From an uncultured Paracoccaceae bacterium (lineage in GTDB: Bacteria; Pseudomonadota; Alphaproteobacteria; Rhodobacterales; Rhodobacteraceae): a DNA stretch of 64,000 nucleotides. Made by a program: the position numbers and the translations under genes. Shown here one piece after another: positions 50,913 to 60,859 of this stretch; the first letter of the stretch is position 1; each line of letters begins with the position of its first letter. The stretch lies in assembly GCA_947503965.1 (NCBI GenBank), contig CANNFU010000006.1, positions 62,001-126,000 on the forward strand, read 5' to 3'. Below the pieces are notes generated by a model. That model had not been told where the DNA came from and did no database searches. It saw only the letters and a program-made list of their open reading frames with translations.

Positions 50913-51326
50913 ATGCTGCAACCAAAGCGTACAAAACACCGCAAGCTGCACAAAGGCCGCATCCGGGGCGAAGCCAAGGGCGGGTCTGACCTGAACTTTG
51001 GCACCTACGGCCTGAAGGCGATCGAACCAGAGCGGATTACAGCCCGCCAGATCGAAGCCGCCCGTCGTGCCATGACGCGCCACATGAAGCGTCAGGGCCG
51101 CGTCTGGATCCGTATCTTCCCCGATACGCCTGTGACCTCCAAACCCGTCGAAGTGCGGATGGGTAAGGGTAAGGGTTCCATTGATTTCTGGGCATGCAAG
51201 GTCAAACCCGGCCGCGTGATGTTCGAAATCGACGGGGTGAGCGAGCCGATCGCCCGCGAAGCCCTGCGTCTTGCTGCGATGAAGCTGCCGATCAAGACAC
51301 GGACAGTGGTTCGGGAAGACTGGTAA
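50913..51326 (+). CDS. rplP: 50S ribosomal protein L16
   Basis: 137 residues; [19 protein letters not shown] and [18 protein letters not shown] are typical. L16 places tRNA in the A site; the Arg of the MGKG region can be hydroxylated by YcfD in other bacteria. It is the last plus-strand gene of this block: a terminator follows and rpmC is absent here, being on the other strand 7 kb away. Confidence 0.98.
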
Positions 51327-52604: not shown

Positions 52605-53681
52605 ATGCCCTTCATGCGATCTCTCCTTCTCACAACCGGCCTTTGCATCACGGCGGCCAGCGCCTCGGCCCAAGCTGTCACCTGCGGGCAGGACTATATC
52701 GTCCAACCCGGTGACTACCTGTCGACCATCGCTGATCGTGCCTATGGGGGCACGGGCAACTTCAATCTGATCTACAGCGCCAATGTGGACACGATCGGTC
52801 CAAACCCGGGACTGATCGATGTTGGCGACCGGTTGTTCATCCCCTGCCTGACGGGCGATTTGGGACAATCGGCGGCCAATGCTGCTGCCATTCGCAACAC
52901 CCAAACCACCGCAGCCCTGCCGGGTCCATCCGAAAATCGCCCCATCCGGGTGCTGACAGCAACCGGCTGGGCGCCGTTTATGGATGAAGACCAGGAGCAG
53001 GGGGGCCTCTTGACCGAGATCATCAACCTCGCGCTTGAAAACGCCGATGGCAAGCCGGAATATCAGATCGATTTCATCAATGATGACGGGGCACACTTGA
53101 ACCCGCTGATCGTGGACCATGCCTATGATATCAGCATCGGCTGGAGCCAGCCAAACTGCGATATCATGGACAAGCTGGAAGATGAATCGCAATTCCGCTG
53201 CAACAACCTCGATTTCAGTGAGCCGATGTACGAGGAAGTACTGGGCTATTACGGCCTTGCGTCGCTGCCAACCTTTACCGAGCATGCCTCACTGAGAGGC
53301 AAGCGTATCTGCCGGGCCGAGGCCTTTACACTGGCGCCACTGGAAGGGGTCGACCTGGTCGAGCCTGCGATCAGTGTCGTGCGTGCGCCAACGGCGGCGG
53401 ATTGCATCAACTTCATTCTTGAAAACAAGGCGGACATTGCGCTGGTTGCGGTTGACGTTGCTGATGGCCGGATCAATGAACTGAATGCAGGCGATCAGGT
53501 ACAGATGCACGAGGCGCTGACATTCGTTGATGTTCTGCACGCGGTCATTGCCAAAACGCACCCGCAGAACGAAGTGATCCTTGCGACGGTCAATAATGGC
53601 CTGAACAACATCAAGGAATCCGGTCTGTGGTTCGCGACAGTACGGCGCCACATGACAGCCTTCCGCGCGCTTAATCAGTAA
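52605..53681 (+). CDS. Periplasmic LysM / solute-binding-protein-3 family protein
   Basis: 358 residues with a Sec signal peptide (SLLLTTGLCITAASASAQA). Residues ~27-75 form a LysM-like peptidoglycan-binding repeat (YIVQPGDYLSTIADRAYGG, VGDRLFIPC), and residues ~105-350 resemble family 3 solute-binding proteins (IRVLTATGWAPFMDED). The fusion suggests a ligand-binding protein held at the cell wall. No permease genes accompany it. It is divergent from the oxygenase-like gene; a terminator follows. Confidence 0.78.
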   Translation: MPFMRSLLLTTGLCITAASASAQAVTCGQDYIVQPGDYLSTIADRAYGGTGNFNLIYSANVDTIGPNPGLIDVGDRLFIPCLTGDLGQSAANAAAIRNTQTTAALPGPSENRPIRVLTATGWAPFMDEDQEQGGLLTEIINLALENADGKPEYQIDFINDDGAHLNPLIVDHAYDISIGWSQPNCDIMDKLEDESQFRCNNLDFSEPMYEEVLGYYGLASLPTFTEHASLRGKRICRAEAFTLAPLEGVDLVEPAISVVRAPTAADCINFILENKADIALVAVDVADGRINELNAGDQVQMHEALTFVDVLHAVIAKTHPQNEVILATVNNGLNNIKESGLWFATVRRHMTAFRALNQ

Positions 53682-53701
53682 GGCGCAAGGCAAGCAGAAT
53701 G

Positions 53702-53740
53702 AAAGACGCCCGCCCTGGAAACAGGGCGGGCGTCTTTGTG
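53702..53740 (+). terminator. Terminator after the LysM/solute-binding gene
   Basis: Sixteen-base perfect arms AAAGACGCCCGCCCTG/CAGGGCGGGCGTCTTT with loop GAAA. It is bidirectional in appearance. Confidence 0.9.
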
Positions 53741-53839
53741 TGATGCTGGACAATGCGGGTTTCTTGGTCGCAGTTCAGACGATCTGTTGGACCCACCGTA
53801 TGCATCATGAGGGCACCGCCCGGGCCTCGGGGTGGGTGC

Positions 53840-53898
53840 GAAGCGCCCTCCCCATGGGGGAGGTCCGGGCGCTGCCCGGCGAGGCCGGGCGGGAGTTT
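53840..53898 (+). repeat. Left copy of the inverted repeat flanking the flipped ribosomal block
   Basis: GCGCCCTCCCC/GGGGAGG palindrome, then GGGCGCTGCCCGGCG and GCCGGGCGGGAG. Read in reverse complement, 59506-59561 shows the same order with a few differences. The copies bracket the minus-strand rpmC-rpmD block. Confidence 0.75.
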
Positions 53899-53911
53899 TC
53901 GTAACTGGTTT

Positions 53912-53948
53912 AGAAAAAGAAAAAGGGATTGTCCGAAAACAATCCCTC
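53912..53948 (-). terminator. Terminator of the small minus-strand ORF
   Basis: On the minus strand AGGGATTGT and ACAATCCCT form a nine-base stem followed by TTTTTCTTTTTC. It lies 12 bp after the stop of the 36-codon frame. Confidence 0.7.
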
Positions 53949-53959
53949 CTTCCCAGCCT

Positions 53960-54070
53960 TTAGACGAAAAAGCTAGCAAGCCAGATCAAAGCCGTGAGGC
54001 TAAGAACGATCTCGCAGCGATACTCTTCGCCGTTCGACTTACTTGCTGTGAAAGAGACACCAATCTTCAT
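53960..54070 (-). CDS. Possible 36-residue membrane miniprotein
   Basis: ATG 54070 is preceded by a strong GGGAGGA site seven bases away; the frame encodes MKIGVSFTASKSNGEEYRC and then a hydrophobic segment (LSLTALIWLASFFV) to a TAA, with a terminator right after. The combination of ribosome site, single membrane helix and terminator supports a real small gene. No family is recognised. Confidence 0.5.
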   Translation of the reverse strand: MKIGVSFTASKSNGEEYRCEIVLSLTALIWLASFFV

Positions 54071-54325
54071 GGCAGTCCTCCCATTTCTAATCGCGCTTTA
54101 GCCTTACATGAGTCAGTAAGCACGCGGTTAGACCAGCGTCCGAGTTTTGCCTTTATAAGCGAGTGGCAAGGAGTTTCTCGGAGGCCCCGACTCGCAACTT
54201 TGCGGTTAGTAACCGCTTAATTTTCATCTAGATAGTGTGCTTCGTAACTTCAAGTAATCCGCCAACACTTTCCAGATCAGGTAAAAACGACGCAGCGAGA
54301 GCTTGTAGCGCGAAACACCTCAAGA

Positions 54326-54360
54326 ATAAAAACGCCCCGCAGGTTCCTGCGAGGCGTCTT
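54326..54360 (-). terminator. Terminator after rpmD (minus strand)
   Basis: On the minus strand ACGCCTCGCAGG pairs with CCTGCGGGGCGT, two-base loop, followed by TTTTTATT. It ends the inverted ribosomal block. Confidence 0.85.
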
Positions 54361-54396
54361 ATCATTCAGTCATGCGCGTCTAGGCGCACCGCATGC

Positions 54397-54585
54397 TTAT
54401 CCGCGTTCTTCGATGATCTCCACCAAATGCGGGATGCTGTTAACCATGCCGCGGACGGAAGGTGTGTCTTCCAGTTCGCGGGTGCGGTTCATCTTGTTCA
54501 GGCCCAGACCCACCAGCGTTGCGCGCTGTTTGGCGGGGCGGCGGATCGGGGAGCCGATCTGCTTGACGACGATTGTTTTTGCCAT
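54397..54585 (-). CDS. rpmD: 50S ribosomal protein L30
   Basis: 62 residues; [20 protein letters not shown] and LGLNKMNR are typical. In other bacteria it is followed by rplO; here it is the last gene of a minus-strand block and rplO lies 5.8 kb away on the other strand. Confidence 0.97.
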
Positions 54586-54598
54586 CTGTCAGGTCTCC

Positions 54599-55174
54599 TT
54601 ACGCGTCAGCTTCGGCAGGGGCGGCGGCTGGTGCGTCGTCCCGCTTTGGCAGAATGTCGGCAACCTTCTTGCCACGGCGTTGTGCGACGTTGCGCGGTGA
54701 TTGCTCTTTTGTCAGGCCATTCATGGTGGCGCGGATCATGTTATAAGGGTTCTGCGAACCGATGGATTTCGAAACCACATCCTGCACGCCCAGCATTTCA
54801 AACACGGCACGCATTGGACCACCGGCGATGATCCCGGTACCTGCGGGGGCTGTACGCATCACAACCTTGCCGGCGCCATGACGGCCTTCCATGTCGTGGT
54901 GCAGGGTGCGTCCGTCGCGCAGTGGCACGCGGATCATCTGACGCTTGGCTTGTTCAGTTGCCTTGCGGATCGCCTCAGGCACCTCTTTGGCTTTCCCTTT
55001 GCCAAAGCCAACGCGGCCTTTCTGATCGCCCACAACGACAAGCGCTGCAAAACCGAAGTTCTTGCCGCCTTTTGTGGTCTTGGACACCCGGTTGATGGCG
55101 ACCAGACGGTCGGCAAATTCGGGGGCCTGTTCTTCACGGTTGCGGCCACGGCCGCGGTTTTCACGTTCTGCCAT
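54599..55174 (-). CDS. rpsE: 30S ribosomal protein S5
   Basis: 191 residues. [20 protein letters not shown] (the dsRNA-binding domain with the spectinomycin loop) and [20 protein letters not shown] are conserved. ATG 55174 has AAAGGA at good spacing; an ATG three codons upstream is too close to it. The C-terminus ends in an Ala/Pro-rich tail. Confidence 0.97.
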
Positions 55175-55247
55175 TGATGGCATCCTTTGTATTTTTGGGC
55201 TCCCGCCCGGTTGTCCAATCCAAGTGGCCGAAGCCCCGGATCATCGA

Positions 55248-55299
55248 GGGTGGGTTTCACCCACCCTACAGGGTGTTGGTAGGGTGGGCGAAACCCACC
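55248..55299. repeat. GTGGGTTTCACCCAC repeat between rplR and rpsE
   Basis: GGGTGGGTTTCACCCACCCTAC followed by a GTAGGGTGGGCGAAACCCACC copy, paraphrased here as two facing palindromes. It belongs to the same family as 43253-43293. Its place inside an operon of essential genes implies that transcription passes through it. Confidence 0.78.
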
Positions 55300-55306
55300 G
55301 CACCGT

Positions 55307-55672
55307 TTAGATCTTCAGACCACCTTCACGGGCTGCATCGGCCAGAGCCTTGATCTTGCCGTGAAAGAGGAAACCACCACGGTCGAAATATGCAACGTCG
55401 ACGCCGGCCTTCTTGGCGCGTTCTGCGATTGCAGCACCCACCTTTGACGCGGCTTCGATGTTGTTCTTGCCAACCACGCCCAGATCCTTTTCCAGCGATG
55501 ATGCCGACGCGAGTGTCACGCCGTTCACATCGTCGATCAGCTGGGCGCTGATGTTCTTGTTGCTGCGGTGCACCGACAGACGGGCGCGGCCCTGGTTGGC
55601 GGTCACACCGCGCAGCTTGTTCCGAACGCGCATACGGCGCTTCAGAAACAGTTGTCTCTTGCTGTTTGCCAT
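55307..55672 (-). CDS. rplR: 50S ribosomal protein L18
   Basis: 121 residues; [20 protein letters not shown] and the C-terminal [20 protein letters not shown] are typical of L18, which binds 5S rRNA. A 132-bp gap containing the palindromic repeat separates it from rpsE. Confidence 0.97.
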
Positions 55673-55683
55673 AATGTTCGTCC

Positions 55684-56217
55684 TTACTTCTTCTTGCCTT
55701 CTTTGCGGAAGATATATTCGCCCTTGTACTTGATACCCTTGCCCTTATAGGGCTCGGGCTTGCGCCATTCGCGGATGTTTGCCGCGACCTGACCCACAAG
55801 CTGCTGGTCGATACCTTCCACAGTGATTTCGGTGGGCTTTTCGGATGTGACAGTCACACCTTCGGGCACTTCGAAATTCACATCGTGGCTGTAACCCAGT
55901 GACAGTTTCAGGACATTGCCCTGCATCTGCGCACGGTAACCAACACCGGAAAGCTCAAGCTCTTTCTTGAAACCTTCCGACACACCGGTCGCAAGGTTTT
56001 CCACCATCGTGCGGCTCATGCCCCACTGCTGGCGTGCGCGCTTGGACTTGCCGCGTGGCTCTACCGTGACGACGTTGCCGTCAACGCTGATGGTCACATC
56101 GTCGGTTGCCTTGAAGCTACGGGTCCCCTTGGGGCCTTTCACTTCAACGGTCTGACCTGACACAGAGGCAGTAACGCCTGCAGGCAGCTCAACCGGTTTT
56201 TTCCCAATACGAGACAT
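55684..56217 (-). CDS. rplF: 50S ribosomal protein L6
   Basis: 177 residues; [32 protein letters not shown] and the C-terminal [13 protein letters not shown] are standard. Eleven bases after rpsH in the same direction. Confidence 0.97.
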
Positions 56218-56228
56218 CTATGATCTCC

Positions 56229-56621
56229 TTAGAATACGGTGCAAAGCACTTCGCCGCCAACATTGGCCGCCCGTGCGCTTGCATCCGACATCACACCCTT
56301 GGGGGTAGAGACAATCGACACACCCAGGCCCTGACGGACAGATGGGAGGTCCTGTGCGCCCATGTAAACGCGCCGACCGGGTTTTGAGACCCGCTTGACT
56401 TCGCGAATGACAGGAGTGCCCTCGTAATACTTCAGCTCGATCTTGAAAGCCGGATGGCCGTCTTTGCCGTCCTTCTTTTCGTAGCCGCGGATGTAGCCTT
56501 CGTCGGCCAGCACATCCAGCACCCAGGCACGCAGCTTCGACGCAGGTGTTTCCACCGTTGCCTTGCCGCGCATCTGACCGTTGCGGATACGTGTGAGCAT
56601 ATCACCGATAGGATCATTCAT
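56229..56621 (-). CDS. rpsH: 30S ribosomal protein S8
   Basis: 130 residues; [20 protein letters not shown] and the C-terminal [20 protein letters not shown] are typical. In E. coli S8 represses the spc operon by binding its mRNA near rplE; whether that survives here is unknown. Confidence 0.97.
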
Positions 56622-56633
56622 AATATGTGCTCC

Positions 56634-56939
56634 TTACCAGCTTGACTTGACCATGCCGGGGATTTCGCCATTGGAACCAAGGTCCCGCAGCGCGATCCGG
56701 CTGATCTTCAGTTTACGGTAATAGGCGTGTGGACGCCCGGTCAGCTGGCAACGGTTGTGCAACCGTGTGGCCGAGGAATTGCGCGGCAGTTTCGCCAGTT
56801 CAAGTGTCGCCTTGAACCGCTCTTCCACGGGCTTTTCCTTGTCGTTGATGATTGCCTTCAAGGCGGCACGCTTTTCGGCATACTGCTTGACCAGCTTTTC
56901 ACGCTTCACTTCGCGTGCGATCATGGATTTCTTAGCCAT
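56634..56939 (-). CDS. rpsN: 30S ribosomal protein S14
   Basis: 101 residues of the long, zinc-free S14 type (no CxxC pairs); [20 protein letters not shown] is the conserved C-terminal motif. Confidence 0.97.
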
Positions 56940-56952
56940 ATCTAATATCCCC

Positions 56953-57516
56953 TCAGCTGTTGAATGGCATGTTGAACGCTTTCAACAGTGCCTTTGCTTC
57001 AGCGTCAGTGTTCGCTGTTGTGCAGATTACGATGTCCATGCCCCAGTTCTCATCGATCTTGTCGAAGTTGATCTCGGGGAAAATCAGGTGCTCTTTGATG
57101 CCGGTGGCATAGTTGCCGCGGCCGTCAAAGGATTTGCCCGATACACCGCGAAAGTCGCGGATACGGGGCATTGCAACCGTGATCAGACGATCAAGCAATT
57201 CGTACATACGATCACCGCGCAGGGTCACCTTGGCACCCAGCGGCATATCTTCACGCACGCGGAAACCGGCGATGGATTTCTTGGCCTTTGTCGTCACGGC
57301 CTTCTGGCCGGCGATGGTGGTCAGGTCTTCCTGCGCTGTTTTTGCCTTCTTGCTGTCGCGGACAGCCTCGGCACCGCAGCCGATATTCAGGACAATCTTG
57401 TCCAGCTTCGGGATCTGCATGTCGTTCTTGTAACCGAACTCTTCCTTCAGGGCGGCACGAATGGTCTTCGTGTACTGGTCCTTCAGGCGCGGGGTGTAGT
57501 TTGCAGCATCAAGCAT
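56953..57516 (-). CDS. rplE: 50S ribosomal protein L5
   Basis: 187 residues; [30 protein letters not shown] and [16 protein letters not shown] match L5, a 5S rRNA-binding protein that contacts P-site tRNA. Its ATG overlaps the rplX stop by one base. Confidence 0.97.
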
Positions 57517-57821
57517 CAGATCGCATCCCCTGTTGTCTTGGCGAAACGGACCTTGTTGTCGCCATCCATGCGGAAGCCGACGCGGGACGCTTTGCCGTTC
57601 TTGTCAACAATCGCCAGGTTCGACAGCTGGATTGGCATCGCCTTTGGCGTACGACCGCCCTGGCTTGCCTGTGACTGTTTCTGGTGGCGAATGGCGATAT
57701 TGATCCCGTCAACGACAGCCTTGCCGGACTTTGGATCAACGGATGAAATCGTGCCCTTCTTGCCTTTGTCTTTCCCGGCAAGAACGATCACTTCATCACC
57801 TTTACGGAGTTTCGCAGCCAT
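57516..57821 (-). CDS. rplX: 50S ribosomal protein L24
   Basis: 101 residues; [20 protein letters not shown] is the KOW motif. L24 is an early assembly initiator at the tunnel exit. Two bases after rplN. Confidence 0.97.
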
Positions 57822-57823
57822 GG

Positions 57824-58192
57824 TTACAGCACCTCCGGAGCAAGCGAGATGATCTTCATGAAATTCTTCGCGCGCAACTCACGCACAACCGGCCCAAAGA
57901 TACGGGTGCCGATCGGCTCGTTGTTGTTGTTGAGGATGACAGCAGCGTTGCTGTCAAAGCGGATGGCGGTGCCATCTTCGCGGCGAACTTCTTTGGCGGT
58001 GCGTACGACGACGGCCTTGCGGACGTCACCTTTCTTTACGCGACCACGTGGAATGGCTTCCTTCACCGAAACGACAATGATGTCTCCAACACTGGCGTAA
58101 CGACGGTGGGAACCACCCAGAACCTTGATGCACTGAACACGGCGGGCGCCGCTGTTGTCAGCAACATCCAGATTGGTCTGCATCTGGATCAT
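57824..58192 (-). CDS. rplN: 50S ribosomal protein L14
   Basis: 122 residues, universal length; [19 protein letters not shown] and [20 protein letters not shown] are near invariant. An 80-bp gap separates it from rpsQ. Confidence 0.98.
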
Positions 58193-58272
58193 TTGGTTTC
58201 CTTCCGACCTATGGGCAAGTCCCGATTTCCGTCCGGGGGCCCAGGGTTTCGATTAAACCGAGAGGGTATCGC

Positions 58273-58503
58273 TTAAGAAGCAATAACCTCCCAGCGTTTC
58301 GTCTTCGACTTTGGCGCACATTCCTGGATACGGACCTGGTCACCAACGTTGAATGCGTTGTTCTCATCGTGCGCCCGGTACTTCTTGGACTTACGAATGG
58401 TTTTCTGAAGCAGCGGGTGCTTGTAACGACGTTCGACCGAAACGGTGACGGTCTGGGCGTTCTGGTTGCTTGTGACAACCCCGGCAAGGATACGCTTTGG
58501 CAT
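58273..58503 (-). CDS. rpsQ: 30S ribosomal protein S17
   Basis: 76 residues; [20 protein letters not shown] is conserved. S17 binds 16S rRNA helix 11 early in assembly. Two bases after rpmC. Confidence 0.96.
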
Positions 58504-58505
58504 TC

Positions 58506-58712
58506 TCAGGCCTCCTTGGCAGCGGCTGCTGCTTTTTCGTTCAGAATGGTTTTGACCTTCGCCGCGTTGCGACGTGCAGCGCGAATGCCTGCGGTGTTTT
58601 CCAACTGGCCGGTGGCCTGCTGGAAGCGCAGATTGAAGGATTCTTTTTTCAGGTTTGTCAGCTCCTCACGAAGCTGATCGGGCGTCTTGTCCCGCAGTTC
58701 ATTGGCGTTCAT
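58506..58712 (-). CDS. rpmC: 50S ribosomal protein L29
   Basis: 68 residues from ATG 58712 (AAAGGA seven bases upstream); [20 protein letters not shown] and [14 protein letters not shown] are typical. First gene of the inverted block; it is the gene that should follow rplP on the plus strand. Confidence 0.95.
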
Positions 58713-58792
58713 GCCATATTCCTTTGTCAACATCACCGGCAGGCCGTACGAGACGTCACCCGATTCCCGGTGGAGTGGGTGTAGAAGTGGGC

Positions 58793-58821
58793 CGTATAGG
58801 GGGGGATGGAGGGGTTGGCAA
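58793..58821 (-). promoter_or_regulatory. Promoter of the inverted rpmC-rpmD block
   Basis: On the minus strand TTGCCA, 17 C-rich bases, TATACG, ending 81 bp before rpmC. It has the same spacing, -10 and C-rich spacer as the plus-strand ribosomal promoters, so the block carries its own promoter in the flipped orientation. Confidence 0.78.
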
Positions 58822-58913
58822 GGGGGAATAGATAGCAGGTCGTAATCTTTGGACTGTGTTCGAATACAACCCTCAGATAGACTTGGTGGCAGAGCCTCTC
58901 ATGATTAATCAGG

Positions 58914-59504
58914 ATGTACCTTTTGAAGTGTTCTCAATGTGACCGACCGGCCTTTTACTCAGTATCTGAGCAGAACTTACCGCTTTGCCTCGATTGCTAT
59001 ACAAAGTGGCATCATCTTCAAACCGTAGATTTCTTGAAGAATGCAGCAATGCTGAACAGCGCCGAGGATGACATGGATGCAATCTTAGGTATGCCGAGAA
59101 CCAAACCACGCATACCCGTCGAGCAGATTGCGCACGCTATTGCTAGGAGTCCAACATTGAACAATTTTGTCATTAACAACTCGCAAGTCGGTGTATTGAA
59201 CACCGGTTCAATCAATCGGATCGACGCGGCCATCACTCTTAGTAAGGGCTCTGATGTAGAGCCAATCATGGAACAGATAAGGTCACTCGTAGAGGCCGTG
59301 ATTGCGTCTGACGAAATTGACGCCTCTGATAAGAACGAAATCATCGACCTGACCGACGCTACGGCAGAAGAGATAGTGGGACGTCGTCGCCTTCCCTCAA
59401 TCATCGCTCAAGTAAAAGCAATCCGAGAAAAGGTTGGTGGAGCGCTTGCGCTGTCGGATGCAGTCGACAAGCTACTGGACGCGTTGCGTGGTGGCTTCTT
59501 GTAA
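58914..59504 (+). CDS. Hypothetical protein with N-terminal zinc ribbon
   Basis: 196 residues. The N-terminus KCSQCDRPAFYSVSE and LCLDCYTKWH hold two CxxC pairs, a likely zinc ribbon. A central segment, VINNSQVGVLNTGSINRID, is followed by a helical, Asp/Glu-rich C-terminal half. No enzyme motif is seen. It is divergent from rpmC, lower in GC than its neighbours, and its stop codon lies one base before the right inverted-repeat copy, so it is inside the flipped segment. Function unknown. Confidence 0.65.
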   Translation: MYLLKCSQCDRPAFYSVSEQNLPLCLDCYTKWHHLQTVDFLKNAAMLNSAEDDMDAILGMPRTKPRIPVEQIAHAIARSPTLNNFVINNSQVGVLNTGSINRIDAAITLSKGSDVEPIMEQIRSLVEAVIASDEIDASDKNEIIDLTDATAEEIVGRRRLPSIIAQVKAIREKVGGALALSDAVDKLLDALRGGFL

Positions 59505-59505
59505 A

Positions 59506-59561
59506 GTCCCGCCCGGCGGCACCGCCGGGCAGCGCCCGACCTCCCCCCGGAGGGCGCTTTT
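59506..59561 (-). repeat. Right copy of the inverted repeat flanking the flipped ribosomal block
   Basis: Reverse complement of this stretch reads AAAGCGCCCTCC, GGGGGAGGTCGGGCGCTGCC and CGGCGGTGCCGCCGGGCGGG in turn, matching 53840-53898 closely, including an identical GGGCGCTGCCCGGCG. The two copies are 5.6 kb apart and face each other. Confidence 0.75.
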
Positions 59562-59708
59562 GCAACGTCACAAACAGCGCAACGCCACCCCTGTCGGCAC
59601 CATCACCCACAACACGACCCAATCAAACGCCCTCCAGGTCGGGCGCTGCCCTCAGCACCTAGGCACCAACGTCGTCCCGGACCTGATCCGGGATCTCTAC
59701 CTTACCCG

Positions 59709-60053
59709 TCAGCAATACGCCTGCCTGATACCCCGGATCGCCTCGGCTGGTACCATGCCGGCCTCCAGAACCCCACCCAAAGCCAGCCAGCGCGATGCGT
59801 CTGCTCTGGGGCAATTCAATTCCAGCACACCATGAAATGTCCCCAGCTTCCCGTCACCTCGAACATAGATGTGAGATACGCCATCAAAGGTTTCGGTCAG
59901 ATAGGCCGCAGACCAATTCTGGGTGTAGGTGATTGATCCATCCAGATTAGGACCGACGTTCTGGTCGAAGACGCTGCGCAAACCCTCGGCGTGCACCGTG
60001 GTCGCCGACCCTATCAATGCCGCGCAAAGAAATGTTGTCAGTTTCAGGCACAT
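59709..60053 (-). CDS. Small secreted protein, 114 residues
   Basis: Starts at ATG 60053 with GAGGA at good spacing. A Sec signal (LTTFLCAALIGSATTVHAEG) is followed by a mature domain of about 92 residues with ITYTQNWSAAYLTETFDG, VSHIYVRGDGKLG and two Cys (ELNCPRAD, final Cys), probably disulfide-linked. No family recognised. An array of 11-bp GTACA repeats lies about 130 bp upstream in the orientation of this gene and may control it. Confidence 0.65.
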   Translation of the reverse strand: MCLKLTTFLCAALIGSATTVHAEGLRSVFDQNVGPNLDGSITYTQNWSAAYLTETFDGVSHIYVRGDGKLGTFHGVLELNCPRADASRWLALGGVLEAGMVPAEAIRGIRQAYC

Positions 60054-60182
60054 GGTAATCCTCTTGAGCGGCGCATGTCTTGGCGATTGGCTGTCCGGCG
60101 AGAAACCGTCAGCCGTGTTTCGAAATGATGTCGGTGCGCACCTGCTGTTCCGATCCGTGCAAATACGGTCGCTGACATACAT

Positions 60183-60226
60183 CTGTACGTACAGCGTATG
60201 TACGTCGTCTGTACAGGTTATGTACG
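60183..60226 (-). promoter_or_regulatory. Four tandem 11-bp GTACA-type repeats (candidate operator array)
   Basis: GTAC occurs at 60189, 60200, 60211 and 60222, exactly 11 bp apart, with an extra one at 60185. Read on the minus strand the units are GTACATAACCT, GTACAGACGAC, GTACATACGCT and GTACGTACAGA. Consensus and period equal those of 12590-12622. It points toward the secreted-protein gene ending at 59709. Confidence 0.55.
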
Positions 60227-60264
60227 CATATTGAAGGTATAACAGGGGGACGCCAAGACACCCC

Positions 60265-60293
60265 TTGATCCAAAGGCCCGCGCTGTCTATACG
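60265..60293 (+). promoter_or_regulatory. Promoter of the rplO-secY-adk unit
   Basis: TTGATC (60265-60270), 17 bases, TATACG (60288-60293), then CCGCTGG. The -35 is the weakest of the five, and the spacer here is G/C-rich rather than C-rich. Confidence 0.7.
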
Positions 60294-60385
60294 CCGCTGG
60301 TCGGCCTCAAAACCGATTCATTATGTAACGCCGTGTTTGGCCGCTCCCGTCGCTGGGGGCCAATTCCGGCAAAAGGAGAAGCGAC

Positions 60386-60859
60386 ATGAAACTGAACGAA
60401 CTTTCCGACAATCCAGGCGCCACACAGCGCAAAAAGCGTATTGGCCGTGGTCCGGGTTCCGGCATGGGCAAGACCGGTGGCCGTGGTATCAAAGGTCAGA
60501 AATCACGCTCCGGTGTGGCCATCAAGGGTTACGAAGGCGGCCAGATGCCGCTCTACCAGCGCCTGCCAAAGCGTGGCTTTAACAAGCCCAACCGCAAGGC
60601 ATTTGCCGTTGTAAATCTGGGGCTTATCCAGAAATTCATCGACGAAGGCAAACTGGACGCCAAGGCCGACATCACCGAAGACGCGCTGATCGCATCCGGT
60701 CTGGTGCGCCGCAAAAAGGACGGAATCCGCGTGCTGGCCAAGGGTGATTTCAAGGCGAAGGCCAAGATCACTGTGACCGGCGCCTCCAAAGGTGCGGTTG
60801 AAGCTGTCGAAAAGGCCGGCGGCTCACTGACCGTCACAACTCCGGCAGCGGCAGAGTAA
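60386..60859 (+). CDS. rplO: 50S ribosomal protein L15
   Basis: 157 residues; [40 protein letters not shown] and GFEGG-like [18 protein letters not shown] are typical. It resumes the plus-strand spc gene order after the inverted block. Normally rpmD is directly upstream. Confidence 0.98.

Follow-up and report, generated by a model that had tools for sequence, protein, structure and literature searches.

How did the middle of the S10-spc-alpha ribosomal-protein cluster, whose gene order ranks with the best conserved in bacteria, come to run backwards between its neighbours? The question is raised by a 64,000-nucleotide stretch, hereafter called the window, from an uncultured Paracoccaceae bacterium (assembly GCA_947503965.1, contig CANNFU010000006.1, positions 62,001 to 126,000), whose source genome is a 4.65 Mb draft of 47 contigs. 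Here, eleven consecutive genes occupy the minus strand between two groups of plus-strand genes, as indicated by open reading frames (ORFs), family matches and, for the block, relatives:

54397..58715, minus strand: inverted block of 11 ribosomal-protein genes, rpmC-rpsQ-rplN-rplX-rplE-rpsN-rpsH-rplF-rplR-rpsE-rpmD
50913..51326, plus strand: rplP, the end of the non-inverted S10 module
60386..60859, plus strand: rplO, the start of the non-inverted rplO-secY module

Very probably, one local inversion, about 6.2-6.5 kb long and cut in two spacers between gene modules, turned the whole rpmC..rpmD unit in the lineage of this marine Yoonia bacterium. As far as the assembled letters can tell, the inversion is real, and it lies in an uncommon place.

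All eleven genes of the block are intact open frames and match their families above the curated cut-off, RpsE via its two Pfam domains. Family matches were also obtained for the plus-strand genes rplB, rpsS, rplV, rpsC and rplP upstream and rplO, secY and rpsK downstream; adk and rpsM lay outside the family-library scan and owe their names to their position and to in-order matches in relatives. ORFs and family matches together confirmed the arrangement that an earlier note had read from this DNA, namely eleven intact minus-strand genes between plus-strand rplP and plus-strand rplO-secY. Its label for them, the spc block, is loose, since in Escherichia coli the S10 operon is conventionally taken to end with rpmC and rpsQ. 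With these operon limits, each of the two ends of the block, rplP/rpmC and rpmD/rplO, falls within an operon of the E. coli type (S10 and spc).

Relatives carry the block the other way round. In 12 of 12 congeners, the block match was opposite in strand to the rplP match, the rplO match or both on the same contig, which means that the block is un-inverted there. Together with the window and 80 loci from an RplE search, and after removal of 6 duplicates, the congeners gave 87 distinct loci, 66 of which contain rplP and rpmC and 71 rpmD and rplO. With the window excluded, one direction was kept throughout at rplP-rpmC (65/65 loci) and at rpmD-rplO (70/70). The loci from the RplE search span at most 10 kb on each side of rplE and would miss neighbours that have moved far away, a gap addressed by the family, class and genus surveys described below. 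The comparison of gene order in close relatives, which the earlier note had asked for, thus found the block running with its neighbours in Yoonia and near-relative loci, and the inversion is therefore placed in the lineage of the window. As is typical of a local inversion, the segment is reversed in place between unmoved flanks, and the order of its genes and passengers is kept.

The extent of the inversion follows from the elements at its two ends:

59709..60050, minus strand: orf114, a small protein of unknown family with homologues upstream of rpmC
59503..59567, minus strand: rpmC-side copy of a dispersed repeat, of another subtype than the rpmD-side copy; inside the inverted segment
59570..59701, minus strand: outer flank of the rpmC-side repeat; in relatives it adjoins the repeat and is likewise found toward rpmC
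53810..53898, plus strand: rpmD-side member of the dispersed, GC-rich palindromic repeat family; lies at the edge of the inverted segment or within it
53702..53737, plus strand: strong hairpin that follows a LysM-domain gene and lies just beyond the left breakpoint; scored as terminator-like for the minus strand alone
53738..53841, no strand: left breakpoint interval, between this hairpin and the rpmD-side repeat, from homology limits in locus L054 and genome G012
60080..60178, no strand: right breakpoint interval, between orf114 and a TGTAC-rich element before the rplO promoter-like site, from orf114 homology and the element in relatives; limit 60265 without the element

In all five loci that hold it (the window, L048, L050, L052 and L137; L048 and L139 are the same stretch fetched twice), orf114 is found upstream of rpmC and co-directional with it. 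The four relatives among them share a linked string of orf114, the 130-bp flank and rpmC, and in two further loci (L029 and L054) the rpmC side carries the flank without orf114. In the window, the string is intact, with the rpmC-side repeat inside it, but lies on the rplO side. The flipped segment therefore includes orf114. On the left, homology on the side of the LysM-domain gene extends to 53741 (L054), and G012 gave a single contiguous reverse match to window positions 53841-58822 (87%). On the right, the limit of orf114-side homology was 60080 in L048 and at most 60029 in other loci. The cut probably lies before 60178, because the TGTAC-rich element (60178-60231) stands upstream of rplO in relatives; it resembles sequence at that place in L034, L038 and L055 (by eye) and in L135. 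The inverted segment measures about 6.2-6.4 kb; disregarding this element raises the upper limit to 6.5 kb. The limits proposed in the earlier note, at the repeats (53.84 and 59.56 kb), were consequently revised: the inversion runs past 59561 through orf114 to about 60080-60178, and the left cut falls within 53738-53841. The TGTAC-rich element itself looks like a regulator binding array.

Between the two breakpoint intervals, the longest inverted exact match was 7 nt, a length equalled in 163 of 300 shuffles, and no inverted homology beyond chance was found between them. Because the intervals share so little, the join is best read as homology-free, which would make it non-homologous or microhomology-driven, unless the homology has since been lost. 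In this reading, the cuts fell in the two spacers between the modules rplB..rplP, rpmC..rpmD and rplO-secY..rpsK, presumably in one event, and the turned unit includes a promoter-like site, a terminator-like hairpin, both repeat copies and orf114. Such a flip may have been tolerated because every gene kept its promoter. The predicted signals are:

58793..58821, minus strand: promoter-like site ahead of rpmC, TTGCCA-17-TATACG; turned together with the block
60265..60293, plus strand: promoter-like site of rplO, TTGATC-17-TATACG, not inverted
54329..54360, minus strand: terminator-like hairpin after rpmD

Both promoter-like sites stay with their genes after the flip. In the 300 bp upstream of the gene, a TTGnnn-16/18-TATAnn pattern was present in 53 of 85 other loci for rpmC and in 66 of 70 for rplO, compared to 3 and 3 in shuffled sequence. 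That the block has a promoter and a terminator of its own, as the earlier note supposed, is thus borne out at the level of predicted sites.

Several observations weigh against the proposed inversion or its details. The species is represented by one draft genome, known as assembled sequence only. Homologues of orf114 are just 44-50% identical, and they are few (5 of 31 genus genomes, counting the window and a weak partial match in G010, which lies on another contig than the block of that genome). The flank sequence is partly present elsewhere in the genome, and the TGTAC-rich element used to narrow the right breakpoint is dispersed: similar sequence was found at about 10 places of the genome, its own copy included. 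For rpmC, 32 of 85 loci lack the upstream promoter pattern, and a separate promoter scan listed neither site and gave fewer sites than its shuffles. Finally, the hairpin that follows the LysM-domain gene lacks a T-run on that gene's strand.

The best surviving alternative, which we nevertheless consider unlikely, is that the middle module flips repeatedly. Inversion would take place between the joints, some lineages would flip back and leave flank genes swapped, and the window would be one state and G012 the mark of another. In support of this idea, a small gene termed orfX is a minus-strand neighbour on the rplP side in G012 (L029, 7157-7486), and its homologues precede rplO on the plus strand in L052 (16146-16475) and L054 (15322-15651), with 68-69% identity; the block is un-inverted in all three. 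The position of orf114 in the window shows the complementary swap. Moreover, ORFs that had swapped sides were reversed in orientation as well in 13 of 13 rows listed (17 matches before the coverage filter). However, the rows from the window share one event, some of the rows represent ORFs in repeats, and five are distant (32-34% identity). The gene tree placed the window outside a group of G012 and L048-L054 (support 95/99), a quicker tree placed it beside L033 with support of 0.31, and a first inversion shared by the window and G012 needs extra steps on the tree. A move of orfX alone fits too. We also considered a shared inversion of window and G012 with later reversal, and rejected this candidate, as the tree speaks against it (approximately unbiased test with window and G012 held together, p 0.022).

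Less probable still is the mechanism put forward in the earlier note, i.e., that homologous recombination between facing copies of the repeat inverted 53.84-59.56 kb. The facing element does exist on both sides of the block: the pair 53856-53887/59517-59548 is 81% complementary over 32 nt, BLAST gave 82% identity over 57 bp, and over the whole flanks no exact inverted match exceeds 16 nt. Relatives likewise have copies of the repeat family in both joints. The note had named relatives with ancestral order and without the repeats as the case that would speak against it; the ancestral order was found, the absence of the repeats was not. A crossover between the copies would exchange their outer parts and leave orf114 on the rplP side, and neither is seen, so that this candidate was rejected. 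Where such recombination places inverted repeats at both breakpoints and leaves the outer flanks unmoved, the copies in the window lie inside the segment, the left one possibly at its edge, and the rpmC-side copy came to the rplO side together with orf114 and 59570-59701. The limited similarity of the two copies argues against an exchange as well, and they are not hybrids. In an alignment of nine stretches, the longer CCCCATGG form was common to the rpmD-side copies of the window and G012, and the shorter form to the rpmC-side copy of the window, one of two rpmC-side copies of G012, L048 and L054; the second rpmC-side copy of G012 agreed in its first half only, and L050 and L052 in the second half only. 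Each copy thus keeps the subtype of its block end. Because orf114 and the outer flank moved with the block and the copies keep these end-specific subtypes, the repeats are passengers of the inversion and not its cause. Nor is the repeat special to the block ends, since a search of the own genome with the 121 bp around it matched 12 places, including the query and possible pieces of one copy.

That the draft assembly merely placed the block backwards is hardly credible, since at the join sites no inverted sequence longer than 7 nt is shared and the inverted unit keeps the orf114-flank-rpmC order of its relatives, which leaves no evident repeat at the true joins to mislead the assembler.

The preferred inversion can be set against the state of the same joints in other genomes, which were surveyed with a joined RplP-RplE-RplO query. 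The family survey comprised 61 genomes, one per genus, of which 59 gave matches and 57 were used. Among the matches listed, and with both genes on the same contig, rplP-rplE was colinear in 44 of 48 genomes (exceptions: the window, G029, G054 and G065). For rplE-rplO the figure was 31 of 34, with the window, G063 and G054 as exceptions; the rplO match of G054 came from another search. In the class, 49 genomes were searched; with the window and one family member set aside and two lacking a match, 45 genomes outside the family remained, in which rplP-rplE was colinear in 38 of 39 and rplE-rplO in 41 of 42, the sole exception at both joints being a 0.6-Mb genome. In colinear genomes, the rplP-rplE distance had a median of 2658 bp in 44 family members (range 1185-6851 bp) versus 1194 bp in 38 genomes outside the family (941-1302 bp), and rplE-rplO ranged from 2486 to 7681 bp in the family versus 2067-2799 bp in the class. 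Hence, the rplP|rpmC and rpmD|rplO joints are long in this family and short in the other Alphaproteobacteria surveyed.

Within the genus (48 genomes searched, 47 with matches), rplP-rplE was colinear in 32 of 35 genomes, the exceptions being the window, G136 and G141, and rplE-rplO in 37 of 39, the exceptions being the window and G137; these counts exclude 6 and 5 genomes, respectively, with the genes on different contigs. In one of these, G132, the block sits on a 415-kb contig without rplP, about 40 kb from the nearer of its limits, which indicates that its joint is broken too. In the fetched stretches of G029, G063, G065, G136, G137, G141 and G132, the modules rplB..rplP, rpmC..rpmD and rplO..rpsK were each whole, as were the first two of these modules in G054 and G121, and the breaks fell at the joints. 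The block faces rplP both in G054 and in its single congener G121. The form seen in the window, in which only the middle module is reversed and still sits between rplP and rplO, was absent from the other genomes examined. From the different forms of these joint breaks we infer that they arose independently of each other. The event in the window is part of a looser architecture of the ribosomal cluster in this family. As the long joints of the family are broken in several genomes, loss of read-through between modules suggests itself as the step that freed gene order. It is conceivable, though doubtful, that the S10/spc/alpha supercluster of Rhodobacteraceae has split into three self-contained cassettes with joints as recurrent sites of inversion and relocation, the middle one flipping and flipping back, so that the window would be flipped and G012 would bear a double-flip footprint. 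In other genomes of the family (loci L125, L126, L127, L128/L129, L133/L134, L135/L136, L137/L138, L139/L140 and L141), the S10, middle or rplO module was seen inverted or moved at the same two joints.

The class of event is known; the place is striking. The passages cited from a study of Gammaproteobacteria and Bacilli, in which the wider ribosomal cluster is treated as highly conserved, give 115 rearrangements, a class including inversions, of which 75 leave operons whole, with spc-alpha concatenated in every genome (PMC8046335). The event in the window is of the same kind, but its cuts fall within the classical operons. Inversions have been named, in the portion cited, a major source of structural change in prokaryotic genomes (PMC5850607); compared to these at large, the window shows a 6-kb in-place flip within a ribosomal-protein cluster. 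A literature search of limited journal coverage gave, among the titles and abstract openings listed, no report of this inversion or of such joint-breaking in Rhodobacteraceae. A clean flip of eleven genes that keeps promoter-like sites with their genes is a natural experiment on what preserves the gene order, be it common transcription, the direction of replication or a lack of opportunity.

The repeats invite comparison with dispersed palindromic repeats of the repetitive extragenic palindromic (REP) type. Like these, they are short GC-rich, hairpin-capable sequences at several places per genome. They differ in that their folding energy is not unusual for their composition (z ~ -1), that they are not mediators of the inversion, and that the REP-associated Y1 transposase family (PF01797) had no match in the own genome (0/1; present in 5 of 14 controls), which sets them apart from REP/RAYT systems.

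One more ORF accompanies the block:

58914..59504, plus strand: orf196, an insert with a Cys-rich N-terminus between rpmC and the repeat

No homologue of orf196 was found within the fetched loci, other genome collections not having been searched; in Pfam it gave a sub-threshold match only (TtuA_LIM_N), and the DNA of its stretch had no match in a plasmid collection. The same collection gave no match for 53899-54318. Within that region, window positions 53919-54218, downstream of rpmD, share 98-99% identity with G012, compared to 76-98% for the neighbouring ribosomal genes in 150-bp bins. This stretch contains a 36-codon ORF with a hydrophobic end and was matched over its whole length in G012 only, plus a 28-bp match in G007 (19 genus genomes, window included). 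Its near-identity to G012 may reflect recent exchange or strong constraint. At a lax threshold, Rfam gave three matches in 53600-60500, all below gathering (best E 0.07).

The GC skew of the window, in 8-kb steps, ranged from -0.022 to 0.042. At fourfold sites of the block it was -0.215, against -0.187 to -0.308 in 19 relatives, a value that gives neither a date for the inversion nor a sign of adaptation to the new strand. The rplR-rpsE spacer contains a 21-nt hairpin (window 55249-55299, 95% complementary), and a similar palindrome occurs at the same position in 6 of 16 relatives compared.

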